Shown: positions 16,051 through 44,100 of the stretch, in pieces | Layout: each line of letters begins with the position of its first letter | Position numbering within the stretch: position 1 is the stretch's first letter | DNA from: Undaria pinnatifida | Taxonomy: Eukaryota; Sar; Phaeophyceae; Laminariales; Alariaceae | Assembly: GCA_012845835.1 (NCBI GenBank) | Contig: JABAKD010000006.1 | Coordinates: 5,882,318-5,946,317, forward strand | Length of the DNA stretch: 64,000 bases | Reading direction: 5' to 3' | Notes under the pieces: generated by a model | Database searches by the model: none | What the model was told of the DNA's origin: nothing | What the model saw: only the letters and a program-made list of their open reading frames with translations | Made by a program: the position numbers and the translations under genes

Positions 16051-16161
16051 ATCGTAGCTTCCAACGCTCCCGTGGTACATTAGGTTCCACTACTTCCATG
16101 GGAGCTGGCAGTGTACTACCATGGGAGCATCAATCTTCTCTGGCTGAGAACCCTCTTAGTT

Positions 16162-16661
16162 NNNNNNNNNNNNNNNNNNNNNNNNNNNNNNNNNNNNNNN
16201 NNNNNNNNNNNNNNNNNNNNNNNNNNNNNNNNNNNNNNNNNNNNNNNNNNNNNNNNNNNNNNNNNNNNNNNNNNNNNNNNNNNNNNNNNNNNNNNNNNNN
16301 NNNNNNNNNNNNNNNNNNNNNNNNNNNNNNNNNNNNNNNNNNNNNNNNNNNNNNNNNNNNNNNNNNNNNNNNNNNNNNNNNNNNNNNNNNNNNNNNNNNN
16401 NNNNNNNNNNNNNNNNNNNNNNNNNNNNNNNNNNNNNNNNNNNNNNNNNNNNNNNNNNNNNNNNNNNNNNNNNNNNNNNNNNNNNNNNNNNNNNNNNNNN
16501 NNNNNNNNNNNNNNNNNNNNNNNNNNNNNNNNNNNNNNNNNNNNNNNNNNNNNNNNNNNNNNNNNNNNNNNNNNNNNNNNNNNNNNNNNNNNNNNNNNNN
16601 NNNNNNNNNNNNNNNNNNNNNNNNNNNNNNNNNNNNNNNNNNNNNNNNNNNNNNNNNNNNN
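16162..16661. other. Assembly gap (500 N)
   Basis: Exactly 500 unknown bases. It lies between the two inverted copies of the G-tract element. ORFs that cross it are artefacts. Confidence 1.
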
Positions 16662-26359: not shown

Positions 26360-28660
26360 TCCTAAATAGCAGTGGCACCCGCTATATTGGATAAGCGTGG
26401 GTCCCTTGAATAGCGGTTCCAGAATATATTGGCACTATGGACCTCTATACCGTGACCACGACTGTACTGCGTGAACGACCCAATTATAAACCAAACAAAT
26501 CATATTTAATCGAAACGGGGCTTGCGATCGTAAAAGACTTGAGCCAATCCGTCCACCCAACGACAACCCGATCGCCATCCGTTCTGGATGCGGGATTATT
26601 CTATTGACCTCTTGACGAACATTACAAGGGTATGCTCGATAGGGTACGTACCAAAGTATACCGGGTGTATTTTACTCCAAAAACACCCTACCGAAGTGGT
26701 CGGTAAGGTTCGGTACAGCCTCAATACCGGCGCCCAACAGTTCGTTCGATAAGTTCGGTGCGACCTCAGCACCGGTACGCCACACTTGGGTGAGTTTGGC
26801 AAGCCCATCAAAAACGACCTAGGTGTCGGTATACCGTAGTATCGAACATGCCCATCAAAAACGTCACGATAGAATAGTGGTCCCTCTATAGTGTCGGTGT
26901 ACGCCAGCCGGAAATACTGGCATCTCAGCGGCAACCGGCACTGCTCCGCATACTGCCACTACCCCTTGTTCCCATCTATGGCGAGCGATTTCACATGTCA
27001 TGCACTACAGCGGGCAACCGGCACTACTCAAGCGGCTTTATAGAGACACCACTACTACTATATCACATACTGGGTTCTGTTCAAGCCCGTTCGGTAGTCG
27101 CGATACGCTAGGTAGGAGACGGCGAAGACAGCCAAAATCTGCCAAAAAAACACGGAAACACGGAAATATAATAAAAACAATATAGACCTAGTACGTAAAC
27201 ACAAAAAGTCAACGTCAGTACGTGTCACCAACTAATAGCTACGACTCAAACCTAACCGATTAATTACTAACGTTACACCCAATTTGCTTGACTTACCTCA
27301 ACCTCGCCAAAATATAATCTACTCAACTGGGCTCAAAATTGTTAAATTCTCAGGACGTTGCTCAAATTTCCTCGAGTTTGGTCTGCTTCGCTTACGTTTG
27401 CGCACATTTGCTCAATTTTGCTCCACTAACAGTAGCTCATTTTTGCTCAATATATTTTGCCGAATTTTGATCAAATTCGCTCTCGTGTTGCCCCGTTATG
27501 TTAATATTTGCCCGAGCTTAGCCCAACTTCACCCCAGTTGCTGCGCTCCGCATGACGTTGCTCAACCTTGCTCGGTCATCTGTGCCTAATCAGGTTTGCC
27601 CAAAATTTCAAAATAAGCGCGGCGATAACTTACGATGGGCATTCCAACCAGTCGACACATGAATATGTCAACAAAAAACATGGTACAGCAGAGGTCCTTC
27701 TATAGTGCCGGTTGAGCAGCGCCCGTTGCCTGTTATAGCACCTGCGAAATCACTTAGCGCCTGTCGGAACAACCAGTAGTGGCAGCATGTGTAGTAGTGC
27801 CGGTGTCCTCTACAGTGCCGGTAGTTCCGGCTGGCACAAATCAGCACTATCTAGAGGGACTACTACTGTACTTAGGAAAACAAAACCAAAATATTCCAAG
27901 AGTGTGCTTAATAAGGTATGTATATACTCTGAGGTATCCGGGTACCAAACCTGGCCACGGTCATACTCGGGTAGACACCCGGGTACCTCCAGAGAATATA
28001 CGTAATCGGGAAAATACCCCAGTGTCTTCGGAGTATACATACCCTACCCAACACACCCCGAAAAACAAACGCATCGTCCATTCGCCCGCCAAAGCACCGA
28101 TCCATGTGTGTCTTCGACGGCGCCTCCAAACAACGCGCAAACGACGCACGCCACGTTAGGGGTGCCTCCTTACCGGGCTGCTCACTTGAGAAACTCCGTC
28201 CCTCACCAATAGGCCGACTCTAAGAAACAACAAAACGCATACCGATGAATCTATTCCCTTGGCCGGGCCACAGAACGAACAAAAGTGTAAAACAGAAATA
28301 CCATCTCAACGATACTGTGCGTTTCCTCCCCAGGTGAGGAGCCCCGCTAGTCAGAGGCGTTTCGGCCAGAACGTGTTCCAGTGGGAAGGGGGGCGGGGGG
28401 GTGTACTCAGTTTGTGCATGGCCGTAGTCGCATGGTCATAGACCCGCCAGTGGGGGGGGGGGGCAATAGTGCCGGTATGTGCCAGCCCAATATACCGGCA
28501 CTATTCAGGGCACCGGCACTATTGGGAATAGGCGTGCTATAGTTACAAAAGAGAGTTCCGGTCGTACCAAGTGATTACACCGGCACCATGTAGAGCAGCG
28601 CCACTATTCTACCGCCACTATATGAGACCTCCGCACTGTGCCCCTACTGCAGCACGCGTC
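26360..28660. repeat. Dispersed TAGTGCCGGT repeats, TTGCTCAA tract
   Basis: Pieces with ATAGTGCCGGT and CCGGCACTAT lie near 26385-26430, 26875-26960, 27695-27830 and 28470-28620. The 27695-27830 piece matches the minisatellite at 41276-41640 inside the farnesyltransferase gene. 27270-27610 is a degenerate TTTGCTCAA repeat. 28395-28450 has GTGTACTCAGTTTGTGCATG, shared with repeats at 33600, 37325, 38375 and 39487. Confidence 0.55.
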
Positions 28661-28675
28661 AAACTCCTACTGAAA

Positions 28676-29175
28676 CGCAGTCGGTAACTGCCTAATCTGC
28701 ATTGGCGAACAGGGCATCGCGATCGAAGGGTAGCAGTTCGAATAAGACAATAGCCCCCTCAACCGCGTGTGCCCGTTCGATGGGGGCTTCCATGCACTAT
28801 GGAAACCCTTTGTGCAACGTGACTAGTAACCGAAACGTAACCTGCAACTGTCGAACATGCATCGGCGAACAGGGTGTCGTGATCGAACGGTAGCAGTCCG
28901 AAGGAAGAGATTGCCTTCTAAACCGCGTGTGCCCGTTCGACGGGCGCTTCCATACTACATGAAAACCCTTTCTGATTCATAACCACTAACCGAAACGTGG
29001 CCGGTAACTACCGAATGGCATCGGCGAACAAGTTATCGTGATCAGACAGTACTACGACATCGCCCTCCGAACCTCGTGCTTGTTCGACCGGTGCCTCCAA
29101 ACAACATAGAGACCCTTTCTCACACTTGAGATTTACTGAAACGTCCCCTGTAACCGAAACGTAACCTGCAGCTGC
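28676..29175. repeat. Tandem array derived from terminal exon of FTB
   Basis: Three units of about 155 bp (28676-28830, 28831-28990, 28991-29150) continue directly from the real terminal exon. Shared blocks on plus are CGAAACGTAACCTGCA, GGCGAACAGG, GTGATCGAACGGTAGCAGT and GTGCCCGTTCGA. On minus, the unit at 28676 reads FELLPFDRDALFANAD then stop, against FELLPSDHNTLLADAK then stop in the gene. The extra units lack the good acceptor of the real exon. Confidence 0.8.
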
Positions 29176-32100
29176 CTATTTTGCGTCAGCGAGGAGAGTG
29201 TTGTGATCGGACGGTAGCAGTTCGAAGTGAGACATCGCCCTCGCAACTCTGTCTTCGGCAATGTTGTACGCCGGATTGGTGCGTTTCTGCAACAAGGAAA
29301 AAAACGAAGAGGGGTATGAGGGCGAGGTGGGTTGTGTGAGGATAGGTTAGGTTGGGTTCGGTTAGGTGAGGTTGGATTGGGTTGGGATGTGTAGGGTGGG
29401 GTGGGGTGGGGTGGAGTTGGGGGCGGGGGGTGAGGTGGGATGGGTTGGAGTGAGCAACAATTTCACACTATGGACAGATCAGATCGCTGTTTCCTTTTGC
29501 GTTCGTTTGTTTTTGCTCGTCCCATCTAGTATCTTCGCACTTTTTCTTTCTCCTTCTCCCTCCCTAGAACTACAGTAACTCAAATCCGGGGTCACTAAGC
29601 AGGCTCTCCCCCCCCCCTCTACTACGGTACGCGCCTTCGTTTATATCGCGACAATAATTCAGCACTTTCTTCCCTCATCGACTTGCGTCGAATTGTGCGT
29701 ACCCACGCTGTGAAAAGCTCTCGGCAGTTGGCGTCTGGAAAAAAAAACTTCATACGTACCGAGATTTAAACCCTTGACTCCAACCTTAGCATCAACAGTG
29801 TTCGAGGTTAATCCCTAGCCCACCGGGGGCGACCGGCCACTAGACACATTACAAAGTCAGCATTCACGTATAATCTGAGTTTTGGAATTATAATTGCAAA
29901 TACCGAATTCGTCGACGAAGCGCCAAATTCGATAAATTGTTCGAAAGACATTCATGGAAAACAAAATGCCGTAAAATTCAATCCATGGGAAGAGTCCTTT
30001 CGGCCCGCTGCCTCCAGCTGCGGACGAACTTACACTTGCAAGCTTGCGGCTGGATTGCTCCCGGCAAAAAACGAGGCACGAGTAACAGGACAGGCGATCT
30101 CCACGGGGACAGGGGTGCTACCGGCCGAGAAACGTGGGAGATTGCGTAATGCAATTGCCTTGCAAAAAAGCACTTGAAAAGCTCAGGAGGATATATCCAA
30201 TGCCCAAGGTTTGATTTGCCTAAGCAATGCTAAATACACGATGAAAACGAAGGCGGAAACTGGCATAATAACCCAAAGAAGGCTCTTCAATCGCGTACCC
30301 CGCCCTGCCTTAATCGTCAACTACGTGTTTTTTACTGCTGCCTGCTGCTCTTTCCACCAATATTTCAGTACAGTATACATATAGTACTAGGGGGCAAGCG
30401 GTCTCTCTTGGCGGGCGGCCCCACCTGGCCTACGTCGATGGAGCTGGAGAGGCACTGTCCGTTTTGGGCGTGTTCTGTTCAGGGTACCTACTGCTGTTTT
30501 GGTCAAGGTCAACGAGAGGGGAGGGGGACCCTTCGCTCAGATGATAGACCGCATCGAGGCAGCCGCGGGGTCAATCACACCGCCTCCTCGAATGCCCGAC
30601 CCTTTGCACTGGGTGCCGGGCTGCCAACTCGGGGGAGCTCGGTCATAGTTGGGGTATCCAGGGCGATGAGAGATGCGGCTCGATCAGAGAGTATACGGGC
30701 AACTCCAATTTGAATTTCCTTCGCGCATTTTTTACGTGAGGGCAGGTTTCTGCTCTCACATAAAAAAGTGCGTGAATGGCTCTTCCACAAAGATCCAAGG
30801 AGTAGAAAAGCCATGATTATCAAAAATGGAGGAGACTCGTTTCAAAGTCAATCACACATGCTTTTGTGGGAAAAAAATCAAATATGCCGTGAATGCTGAC
30901 TTTGAAATATGTCTACTGTACAGATCATGTAGATTGTTTCACGAATCTGCATAACCTGGACAAGTCTCTACGGGACTGGTCTACATTATCTGAACTACCT
31001 GTACATGTTTCTGCAGTACTTGTGAACCTTAGTATTGATCGTGTTCGAGGTTCATCCCTAGACCATCGGGGGCGACCGGTCACTGTACAGATAATGTATG
31101 TTGTCTCACGAATCTGCATAACCTGTACAAGTCTCTGCGGGGCTGATCTACATTATTTGAACTACCTGTGTTTCTGCGGTACTTGCGCACAGTGTGCAGG
31201 GTGCGGTGACTTAGCACAATTTGTTTTAAACCACAACGGGTAAAAGTTGCCGGATGACCGTCGACAGTTTCCGAAGATGCGACAGCGGGCGCTTACTTTC
31301 TGTCAGAGAAAAACTAAACAAAAAAGGGACAAAAAACAAACAAACAAACAAACAAAACAAAACACAACAGGCGAACAAACAAGCCCGTACCGGCCAACCC
31401 CACCCCCATACCCAGCTAGTCCTGCCCGCCTGCTCGCTCACCAGCTGGTTGGACGCATCCCCCACGACGACCGGGCTGTCAGCCAGGCAGTGCTGTGCCA
31501 CCGACAGGCCACTCAAGGTGTAGCACGTATGGTAGAAATCCCTCCCCCTGCTCGGCAGCAAAAAAATTAGAGACAACACGTATTAACCCCTCCATAACTG
31601 CGAAACCCCCGTCTGGGGGGAGTTTTACGTGGAATAAAACAGGGAAGCTGTCATGCAGTGGTAGAAGGGCTAAAGGGGCTTCAGATCGAGGGGGGCAATT
31701 AACGAAAAACGCGTGCTGTGGCAAGGGTGCGCCTAAATCAGTTACGGCTCCTGACGAGCGCTGCAATAGAGGCGTACACCCGAAATGAAAAAAACTGAGG
31801 TTCTTCATTTGAGGAGGCCCATACGAAACCCATCTATCCACCAACCTATCCACCCACCCACCTAACCAACCACCGACCCACCCACCCACCCACCCACCCC
31901 ACCCACCCCACCCACCCACCCACCCACCCCACCCATCCACCCACCAACTGCGATAGATGTTCACCCTGGCAACATCCATGACGGGAGTCACATATCTTCA
32001 AATACAAATACATCTTTAAAAAACGAGCGGCCGGTGTATCACGCAGCTTGCAAAGATTAGTACCGACCCTTAAAGCGTTCGTGCTCACAGCCGGCGTATC

Positions 32101-35100
32101 TAAAGTACTTCTACAAAATGCGAATGTGCAACCTGGTGAGCATACGAATGTGCAACCTGGTGTACAACTCCCTGGCCTCGGTATTTCAGCGGACGAGATT
32201 GCTGGTACACATCCACAACAAACATCGGGTGATTTCTCAGTCGAGGGAGCCCGTTGGCCAGAGATAGTGCCACCTAAAGGTGCCGCCCTTACTTATCATA
32301 GCCCGTGACTCCTCCTTTGAGAGGCCCTACTCCTGACCCGTGAAACGAGTTTGAGAATAGAATGGACGAGTAAACCCGATGAATGATGCCGTTGCCGGGG
32401 TGACTTGGAAAATGAGTAATACGACTAGGAAAAACACACTACCCCTGATTCGTGAAACGAGTTTGAGAACAAACCGACGAGTAAACCCTGTGAACGATGA
32501 ACGATGAACGATGAACCATGAACCATGACCCATGAACCATGAACCATGAACCATGAACCATGAACGATTTTTGGGCAAACCACACTTCTTATCATATCAT
32601 TATTTCAATATGGTGGCGAAGAGGGGAAGGGGCCAAAACATTTTTGGAGTCAATGCTGCTTTGTACAGTCTGGATTGTTTCGTTCTGTTCTCGCACCCGG
32701 GCGGTACGCTAGCATTGCTTTACCTTGATTAAAGGCGGGTTGTTTTTGGTTTTCTCTTGTCTTACAGTCTGTAACCACATAATTTGTATATCTCTAAGGA
32801 TGAAGAATCAGCAGGGACACTGGGTGTACTGATGTCGTTGGGTAGAAAGAACGGTTTAACGTGCAGACAACACACAGTGGTTTCGGTGTTACTCCTTAGA
32901 TACTTTGGCAGGGTGATGTTTAACCGTAACCCTAACCTTGGCATCCCCCAACAACATTGAAACCGGCATAAAAAAAAAGGAATCCCGTTTTATCCCGCAA
33001 CCTGGAACTACAACCAGGCAGATCAAGGGAAAAGCGGTGGCGGCACATAACGAGGGAGGGGGTCCACTCACTTTCCAGGCTTATCCCTCAAGCCGCCATC
33101 CGACTGCTGCGAACACATCAGCACGTACTCCTGCAGTCTTTCTCTCGCGAAGTCCAGCCCGTCCCCTCCCCTCCCCGCACCCAGTAGCACCACATCTTCA
33201 ATCTCTGTAGGGGTTTCTATAGTTTTGGCCTCCCCAATAACTTCCATGTCTTCCGCCCTCTTACGGGTTTCCAAATTTGCGGTCTCCTCCGCCAAGGTTC
33301 TCACATTTGTTTCCCCCTCGACAATAGCGGTTGCGCTTTCACCACCGCCATCACCAACACCACCACCAACACCGACACTGCCAACATCAACAACACTACC
33401 ATCACCACCAGCACCGCCACCGGCATCGCCACCAATGCCGTCATCGAGTACTACCTCCTCCCCTCCCTGTCTCTGCGCACAGGCGGTGCTTGATAGATGC
33501 TCCTTTGACAATATGAAACGTCCCTCCGCGTCTCGGTGGCTGACCTATAAGTTTTGCATCATCGGGGAGGAGGCCGGGAGGGGGGGGCGGGGGGCGGGGG
33601 GGGGTATACTCATTATCATGCATAGCCGTAGTCTTAATATCATAGACGCTGGCACTCCTATGACTGGACGGAGCACGTCGAGTTTTCACCGACCGGGGGG
33701 AGGGGAGCTACATTGTGCTAGTCTAGCGTGGTCAAGGCATCACTCCCAGTACCTTTGTTTTCGGTTTATTTACAACAACCAGTGTTGTATCTTCCGGAAG
33801 GGGGGGAGGGGGGCAATCATGGCGGGGGCGGGCGGGGGTGGTTGGAGTCAAAGTGTTGGCATTCACGCGCGCCACCGAGTTACAGAAAAACCAACTACCT
33901 GGTAGCATTTTCGCGAGAGTGGGGGGCGGGGACGAGGTACGTGTAACAACAAAAACCAACAACAACAGCAACAAAAATACACATAACACAAAATAACGCC
34001 TACAACACCAACAACGCCGAAAACACACACAAGGCAATGAGTGCCAACGCCTTAATAATATCCTAGTGACCCGTCCTCCCCACACCGACGACGGCAACGA
34101 CATACAACGGCACAAACACCAAACACGACAACGACAACACCACCAACACCAACACCTATATCACCACCACCCCTAACCGCGACCACCCCCATCCATTTCC
34201 ACCACCCCCAACGACAAAAACAACGTTCGCACCTCGCTCCCACGGCCAGCTTCCACGTAGTCGAGCATGGCAACCGCCCCGCCCTGCCAGAAAGAGTAGC
34301 AACCATCCACAAGCTTGTTGGTGCGGCCTTGGAACCTGCGTGTTACCGCATTGTCATGTTACCGTGTTGCTGCTGTGCTACCGCATGGTCATGATACCGT
34401 GCTACTGCCGTGTTACCGCATTGTTATGTTACCGTGTTGCTGCTGTGTTGTCGTGTTATCTTGTTACTGCTGCGTCACCGTAGTGTCATGTTGACATATT
34501 TTCTGCTGTGCTACCGTGTTGCTGCCGTGTTACCGCATTGTCATGTTACCGTGTTACAGCTGTGCTACCGCATTGTCATGCTACCGTGTTATTGCCGTGG
34601 TACAGCATAGTCATGTCGCGTGTTACTGCTGTGTTACCGCATGGCCATGATATCGTGTTAGTGCAGTGTTACCGTGTTACTGCTATGTTACCGCATGGCC
34701 ATGATATCGTGTTAGTACAGTGTTACCGTGTTACTGCTGTGTTACCGCATTGTCATGTCACCGTGTTACTGCTGTGTTACCGTTTTGTTATGTCACCGTG
34801 TTACTGCTATGTTACCGTGCTGCTGCTGTGTTACCGCATGGTGATGATACCATGTTACTGCTGCGTTAGCTCATTGGCATGTTACTACTTTGACTAGGGG
34901 TTGACGCTAGGCTGTCATCATTGCTGACGGTCAGGCAGGGGTTCGAATCTAGGCTGGTGCATTTAATTACGCACAGAGTGTTGTTCCGATTACTCTTCCG
35001 TCGCCGAAAGCGCGAGAGGATGATTTGGCAAAATTCGATGCAAACCGACGAGCACTGGGGATATTCAGGCCTCCGCGGGATAGAAATGGACGCATGTACC

Positions 35101-41100: not shown

Positions 41101-44100
41101 GGCCCCCCGCCGAAACCGCCCTTTATTGGGTCCTGCAAAACGTGGGATATCGATGGCAGCCCAAAGAAAGGGGGAAGGAGCGAGGGAGGGAGGGGGCGGC
41201 AAGGCTGAGCAGCGTCGACAAGGTTGAAGTAGTAGTAGCAGTGGTAGCAGTAGTAGTAATAGAACAATGGGGGCCCCTAGAGTGCCGGGTGACTAGTGCT
41301 TATATCCGGTATAGTGCCCGTTGAGTAGTGCCTATTTCCGCTATAGTGCCGATTGAATAGTGTATATTTCCGGTATAATGTCGGCTGAATAATGCCTATT
41401 TCCGGTTTAGTGCCCATTGAACAGTTCCTATTTCTGGTATAGTGCCGGTTGAACAGTGCCTATATCCGGTATAGTGCCGGTGAAATCGCTTGGCACGACA
41501 GGAATCCGCCACACCACTGAAGTACAAAGCATCGGTATTATACACAATAGTGCCGGTGTCCAGTATAGTGCCGATATTGTTGGCTGGCACATACCGGCAC
41601 TACAGGGAGACCACCACCGCTGTAGTAATACTCGTGGCAGGCAGCAGCTGCAGGAAGAGAAACAGTAGTATAGTAACAACCGTAAAATGTAATATCAATA
41701 ATAAAACCGGCAGCAACAGAAAATAGCGCTGTATCAGTCACAATAGCAGTAGAAGTAGAAGAATAGCACTGGCATCAGTAGCAGACCGAAAACAATACAA
41801 GTAGAAGTGCGCCAGTAGTAGTAGCAATTGCTGCAGCAGAGTAGGGCCATAGCATAAATTGTAGTAGCAGCAGCGGAATACGATGACACCAGCTCAACGT
41901 GTAGAACCATACCTGGCACGAATCTATGGTTTCTATGATCCGCTGTGGCAAGTCCCCCCCAGGAAAAGCGTCGAGAAGGTCAAGGGAATGGATTATCCAG
42001 TACACGATCCAAGGCCGGCTGGCATCGAGAGGGACGAACCTGGCGTGGAGTAGTGACGAGGTGGGGAAGGTTACATCTAACGCCGTAAACAGGTGTTGAC
42101 AATGGGTTGAAAATATTTCCCATGGCATTTGTTACGATGCGGGTTTCAAACGTACACCGCGCCAAAAAAAAATATCCCTTCCAGATCGCTTGAGTCGGAC
42201 GACAACACACAGTACCTAACAAAAAACAGGGTAACAAAAAAGCCACGCTGACATTTGCAGGAAAATGAGAAATTCGGGAGCGGTTGTACTAAAGTTAGTG
42301 AGGAACGCAGCCTTCGTGACGTAACAAATCCAGCCTGAGCCAGCATTCCTGTTTGTTAGGTGTCCTGGACTGTACAAAAACTTGCCGCCGCCAACCACCA
42401 AACCACACAAGTTGACAAAGGGTTACAACTACGCTGCTGCGAAAATTCCTGGCGACAGATAAACGATCATAAAACAAATATGGAGAAGGGTGGGGCGGGG
42501 CACTCGGGTAAGCAAGCAAGCTTATTCCAACAGGTCTATACATGTCGACACTTTGAAGACGATACCCAACACCAGCATGCTCACCCGGGCCCAAGACCGT
42601 TCAATCCCCGCATCAGATACGCCTGGTGCTTCGCCCGCATCAGCACCGCCTGCCGGGGGCAAACAAAAAAAAGTCGGTCTGAGTCAAAAAAGAGGAAGGT
42701 GTTTTAGACATCAGGGTCAAAACTGGGGCATGGGGAAAGGCGTGAGTGGAAAAAACGAGGCTTTTCCACAATAGATACTGCATGGTTTTCCATGTACCAA
42801 ATACGGAATGGGCCAACGTTAGGCTTATGCCCATTATGGTGGCAATTATTTCGGCAAAATTTGGGATTTTGCCTTGCCGTAGAATATCAAGAAATGTTTT
42901 CGGGTATAGCGAACGTAACTACGGGGAATCACGGTACTTTAAACAACTTGATTATTAATCCTTACCCATCATCACGCATACAATCGAGGGGAAAAGCACA
43001 ATGGATGTCAGCCCAACAGTACAGTGTCTTAGCTGGCCTGTGCTCTCTCCGGCAGAAAATATTTCGTACATAGTGTTCCGTAGTCTCTCCGTGTGTTTGT
43101 GTTGACAGCTCACGTGAAATGGCTGTCAGTGCCGACATCTCGAGTGGACGACTTGTCGTACTGTCGTTGCCAGATATAGGTACAGGCCTAGCCATTTGTA
43201 GGTACAACTGAAGACGGAAAAAGGCGAAGACCAACTTGAGCAGACGCAGAGAGGTGCACCTTGAACCTTTCAACCAACCATGGATACGATCGGGGCGCTG
43301 GCCAATCAGAGACGGCCAAGAAGCCTTTTCCCGAATGCTACAGCTAGTGTGCCTACAAACGGCTCAAAAACCCTACTATCACATATTGCTTTTGCTTGTG
43401 TCCAGCCTGAAGTTCTGCAAGAGGCGTTGTATCAATTAACACAACAGGCATGGGGATACCCCCATTTGGGTTTTCCGCCTTAAAAAACTGCCTAAAATTG
43501 TGCAAGGGGTACCGTATAAGACAAAAAAAAAGGGGGGGGGGAAAGCGAAAAATAAAAAACGTTAAAAGCCGTCTTCTTGCCTTTCCGTCCGCGTTGATAA
43601 TTCCTTCTTCGAGGAACTCCGCCATGTCTTCCTCTTCCAACGCTCCCGGTCTCAGCGGCAGAAAATTCAGCTCGCACATACGCTCGCATTCCAGCTGGTT
43701 TTCCAGGAAAAAATCGGCCGATCAAAGTAGGGGATAGGAGAGAGAGGTAAACGGCACAAAAAGGTGGACATACATGGAGAGGACCCATGCTACGGATAGG
43801 AGGGTATTTTAAAAATATATTTTTTGGGGTCAAACATTTTCTGCCTGACGGGGTCCCTAAACTGAGGAAGTAACGCTCAACATTCGATATATCTTAGCAA
43901 CCCCAGCTGTGTTTTACAAAAAATGTCGCTGGATGTCTAGACTCAGCCCATGGAATATTCCGTCGGGTTACGCATACAGCGTTTCACACATCCGGCCGAT
44001 CACGATCCAGATTATCTACAGCGGACAGATCACGATCTCGTAATTTTGTCACGCCAACCCATAGTTCCACACCTGAGGAGCTCAACCGGTCAAAAGGTAT

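Follow-up and report, generated by a model that had tools for sequence, protein, structure and literature searches.

What does the 3′ end of a gene become when it lies in a tandem array? In the window (the whole 64,000-nt stretch of DNA analysed here), the last coding exon of a farnesyltransferase beta (FTB) gene is followed by DNA that resembles it. The copies might supply the gene with alternative ends, might act as a structured 3′ untranslated region, or might be duplicates decaying beside their source. We asked where the array begins and ends, in which direction it grew, and whether its copies bear the marks of use.

The FTB gene and its last exon

On the minus strand we located nine FTB exons, A to I, at 42039-29176, the search extending upstream as far as exon A (42039-41913). 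Joining them places a GT donor after each of the first eight and an AG acceptor before all nine. The start of exon G is uncertain, as the first acceptor tried breaks the frame, and in the protein used here this exon begins two bases downstream, a position chosen to keep the frame. Near this start, at 33071-33544, the upstream open frame is long and glycine-rich and may hold a protein insertion. The joined protein (345 aa) matched mammalian FTB over query residues 4-333 (phmmer, E 2.8e-104) and Pfam PF00432 (E 6.1e-98). By this long similarity over the alpha-alpha toroid, we predict that the host gene encodes the beta subunit of protein farnesyltransferase. Exon H (31547-31442) is the penultimate located exon. 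The last, exon I (29286-29176, 111 nt), has the acceptor TTGCAG in phase 0 and reads KRTNPAYNIAEDRVARAMSHFELLPSDHNTLLADAK, then TAG; the protein ends in ...SHFELLPSDHNTLLADAK, with its stop at 29178-29176.

The window holds 0 tRNA genes, and six other long ORFs compared with Pfam at E up to 0.01 yielded a single match, which fell below its cut-off. A search pattern for FTB picked out 2 stretches in a viral contig collection and 24 in a prokaryotic one, none of which was confirmed; an algal gene is hardly expected in either collection. GC content of the window averages 0.52 over 32 rows (range 0.38-0.61), and the lowest row includes a run of N. At about 16160-16661 there is a run of N (X in the six-frame translations), which marks an assembly gap or a masked stretch.

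A tandem array with a period of about 160 bp

From about 29247 to 28640 on the minus strand, the DNA forms a tandem repeat with direct-repeat spacings of 160, 159 and 165. Tandem Repeats Finder reported a period of 160 over 28698-29043 with 78% matches (score 413), and self-blastn of the region gave E 5e-43. Among autocorrelation lags of 20-399, the strongest were 160 (0.43) and 324 (0.47), compared to a maximum of 0.36 in 200 mononucleotide shuffles. When the four units were combined into a profile, it recovered those four at E 1e-39 to 1e-50, and all other matches had E of at least 0.087. The array is a minisatellite-like tandem repeat of head-to-tail copies, with a regular period above chance. 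A sequence-only reading of this DNA had proposed a periodicity on the scale of 155 bp at 28.6-29.3 kb, with three further units after the FTB stop. The periodicity is present and the three units are there, at a period closer to 160 than to 155.

Unit 1 (U1, 29119-29247), recovered by self-blastn, repeat families and the profile, consists of the last ~72 nt of the FTB exon and the post-stop flank. The other three units lie on the same strand and were all recovered by the profile. U2 (28972-29118) holds LSDHDNLFADAIR followed by TAG (29010-29008) and has a 10-nt gap relative to the other units. U3 (28812-28971) has lost its stop; in this unit, an in-frame TAG precedes the shared coding text. U4 (28640-28811) has an ORF, CMEAPIERAHAVEGAIVLFELLPFDRDALFANAD (28796-28695), that ends in its own TAG (28694-28692). 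As had been proposed, two of the spare units therefore have their own in-frame stop and the third does not. Part of a further, fifth post-stop segment, which the sequence-only reading had not described, continues the array at the end of the interval given for U4.

The frame after the FTB TAG is open at 29175-29011, for 55 codons up to the U2 stop. Were translation to continue past the FTB stop into U2, the protein would gain a tail whose end is another version of its C-terminus. We considered such read-through and set it aside, judging by estimate that a 55-codon open stretch is not rare.

Extent of the copied segment

The self-alignment begins inside the FTB exon, at 29247 (29242 in another alignment), so that of the exon's 111 nt just the final ~72 belong to the array, along with the 3′ flank. 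We compared a 60-nt piece, made up of 24 intronic nt and the 36 nt that open the exon, with the leading parts of U2, U3 and U4 and found no clear match. Against 1000 shuffles, the local p values were 0.35, 0.84 and 0.39 and the semi-global p values 0.05 (0.051), 0.20 and 0.08, respectively, with U2 borderline. By eye, the units seemed homologous to the entire exon with its acceptor; we rejected this reading because the match did not clearly exceed 1000 shuffles. Because the first part of the exon and the acceptor have no clear match in the units, the copied segment most likely began with the ~72 nt at the end of the exon, included the stop and reached about 29075. The earlier description of the last exon as one unit of the array thus applies to the coding text of the C-terminus together with the stop and the 3′ flank, which form the first unit, and not to the first ~39 nt of the exon and its acceptor.

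Splice acceptors in the spare units

The units could in principle be alternative terminal exons of FTB, with exon H spliced to U4, and formerly to U2 or U3, to give a different C-terminus. The last intron is in phase 0, and in U4 a TAG at 28799-28797 is followed by an open phase-0 frame that runs to the unit's own stop, as this reading would predict. It would also predict a compatible-phase acceptor in each copy, and the copies do not each have one. At the site equivalent to the exon's acceptor, U2 has TTG and no AG, U3 has a TAG that is out of frame (and the unit has an internal stop), and U4 has a TAG in frame; no unit carries at this place an acceptor like FTB's own.

Pyrimidine fractions at these sites are 0.40 (U2), 0.40 (U3) and 0.50 (U4), compared to 0.85 at the real acceptor of the last exon, 0.50 at exon E and 0.40 at exon F. 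Since exons E and F are as pyrimidine-poor as the units, pyrimidines alone do not tell against U4. Its trinucleotide and its score do. Each of the 8 FTB acceptors in the comparison, from which exon G was omitted, ends in CAG, whereas the units have TAG or TTG. The U4 TAG falls outside the ten best AGs of the array and hence scores below 1.9, against at least 4.5 for the real sites, whose scores are not independent, the matrix having been trained on them. The best acceptor-like AG of the array does lie in U4, before 28696 at the end of the unit, and ranks at the 99.7th percentile among the window's AGs, but an exon spliced there would lack the shared coding text altogether.

Coding constraint on the copies

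If the copies had been translated, their coding text might be expected to show it. Variable columns number 11, 9 and 13 of 22 each at codon positions 1, 2 and 3, and differences summed over unit pairs number 33, 28 and 42, the third position being the most frequently changed. In 6/6 pairs, amino-acid differences are slightly under the random-placement mean, as use of the units as exons would predict, with P of 0.25-0.48 in five pairs and 0.047 for U1-U2. Nei-Gojobori dN/dS, computed over only 17-22 codons, is 0.24-0.59 and below 1 in all six pairs, which counts mildly against decay of the copies; the open frame and stop retained in U4 count in the same direction. Pairs that include U1 would show some constraint in any case because U1 is in the gene.

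In three of the six pairs, the coding part is more strongly preserved than the post-stop part. Among U2-U4, the 3′ coding part (42/64, 47/64 and 56/75 identical) shows no better preservation than the leading flank (31/43, 33/43 and 38/45). The U4 peptide had no match in Pfam at E up to 1. Any coding signal in the copies is weak at best, and the lack of clear constraint weighs against their use as exons. Taking acceptors and constraint together, we regard it as unlikely that the units are alternative terminal exons. A narrower version, in which U4 would be a working alternative last exon of a minor FTB isoform with a different tail at its C-terminus, having outlived U2 and U3 in a former set of terminal-exon copies, seems to us very unlikely.

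Direction of growth

Across the 511,146,479-b assembly (68 contigs), the unit DNA was found only at the FTB locus. A 601-b query gave one match and a 160-b query gave 3, all at this locus; the search scores the best candidates only, and U2 was not among the three. The shared text opens at roughly the V codon of VARAMSHF, and this short stretch can still be aligned to the end of mammalian FTB. Short as this stretch is, the fact that the shared coding text opens with residues aligning to mammalian FTB favours growth from the exon to the array, and outward growth appears better supported than the reverse.

The reverse course would have the repeat come first, with the FTB exon capturing one unit as a C-terminal tail and losing an older stop. 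The position of the array boundary inside the exon would suit such a capture, as would the last ~14 residues (from LLPSDHN on), which lie outside or at the edge of the mammalian FTB alignment. Against it, the shared text starts before the VARAMSHF residues that align with mammalian FTB, and the genome search found the unit nowhere else. We consider capture of a pre-existing repeat improbable and favour growth outward from the exon. The sequence-only reading had ranked array growth from the exon above simple alternative terminal exons, pointing to the lack of a clear acceptor in the spare units. The analysis agrees, given the mammalian FTB alignment, the single locus and acceptor-equivalent sites that have no AG in U2, are out of frame in U3 and score low in U4.

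A probable fifth copy and the surrounding repeats

About 490 bp past U4, a 45-nt segment on the minus strand (28142-28098) resembles the leading part of a unit. Its nhmmer match had E 0.087 in the whole window and 0.00049 in a chosen 741-b stretch, self-blastn gave E 6e-4 in 1.6 kb, and 0/583 control stretches scored as high against the leading 47 nt of U2. This weak remnant suggests that the array was once longer, and the segment is probably part of a fifth copy that was split by an insertion.

The stretch between U4 and the remnant contains the 9-mer AGTGCCGGT three times. In the window this 9-mer occurs 12 times, compared to 0.36 expected, in two clusters: one behind FTB (26934-28520) and the other in the intron that separates exons A and B (41441-41601), the latter adjoining a 32-bp tandem array at 41281-41481. 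Two arms at 27795-27850 and 28466-28521 form an inverted repeat of 80%. Our guess is that the 9-mer clusters and the inverted repeat belong to a mobile element.

A hairpin in the flank

The post-stop flank offers a different possible role for the array, that of a structured element of the FTB 3′ UTR in which a hairpin (GGGTTTCCAT...ATGGAAGCCC) in U2, U3 and U4 could steer 3′ end formation or stability. In the three units, 29/30 cells are paired, compared to 37-60% in six slid versions, and one pair is changed on both sides. Folding z-scores are -1.25 (U2), -3.21 (U3) and -2.68 (U4). However, 158 of 500 shuffles attain the observed covariation score and pairing, as three related copies hold little information, and pairing may simply be inherited in copies that share descent. 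No Rfam family reached its gathering threshold within the window. We think a regulatory role for this hairpin highly unlikely.

Age and formation of the array

Likeness among the units is 64-78% when long stretches are compared, and they also differ by indels. The array therefore looks old, and in this one assembly the divergence speaks against recent turnover of the kind seen in variable-number repeats. The proposal that the C-terminus, stop and 3′ flank of the gene lie within a minisatellite holds in that all three are in the first unit of the array; the divergence and indels speak against a live minisatellite. It had also been suggested that gain or loss of units could change the protein end. 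Judging from the same likeness and indels, present-day slippage or unequal exchange of this kind is improbable.

We consider it likely that the array is an old partial duplication of the terminal exon together with its flank, now decaying in the 3′ UTR or in intergenic DNA, and that the extra copies are most likely without function. In an old local event, a stretch of ~160 bp that started within the last FTB exon, spanned the stop and extended into the 3′ flank would have been duplicated in tandem. Further rounds of duplication would then have raised the number of copies to four or more, probably five. The mechanism may have been replication slippage or unequal exchange, perhaps favoured by the flank hairpin. 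With the first copy alone joined to the gene's acceptor, it would have remained the sole supplier of the FTB protein end. The others, in the 3′ UTR or beyond, would have diverged without clear constraint, through indels, the loss of one stop, the gain of another and probably the insertion that split the last copy.

Relation to known systems

The observation is real and its explanation is ordinary. On a small scale, it clearly illustrates how the 3′ end of a gene can seed a tandem array next to it. If the copies were used, the organism would have alternative C-termini of farnesyltransferase beta; the sequence evidence points elsewhere. At the level of titles and abstract openings, the literature searched does not name this array.

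Tandem exon duplication is a described process, and a survey of it finds copies outside annotated exons and among UTR exons (PMC9013439). The FTB array resembles the cases in that survey in that part of an exon recurs beside its source, within the extended locus of the gene. It differs in that only the 3′ part of the terminal exon and the downstream flank are copied, without the acceptor, and in that the copies have no apparent coding role. With coding minisatellites such as that of Prdm9 (PMC3890296), the array shares head-to-tail units that include coding text. Unlike that system, it comprises about four units that are 64-78% alike, with indels and no sign of recent homogenisation, and only its first unit is joined to the frame of the gene.
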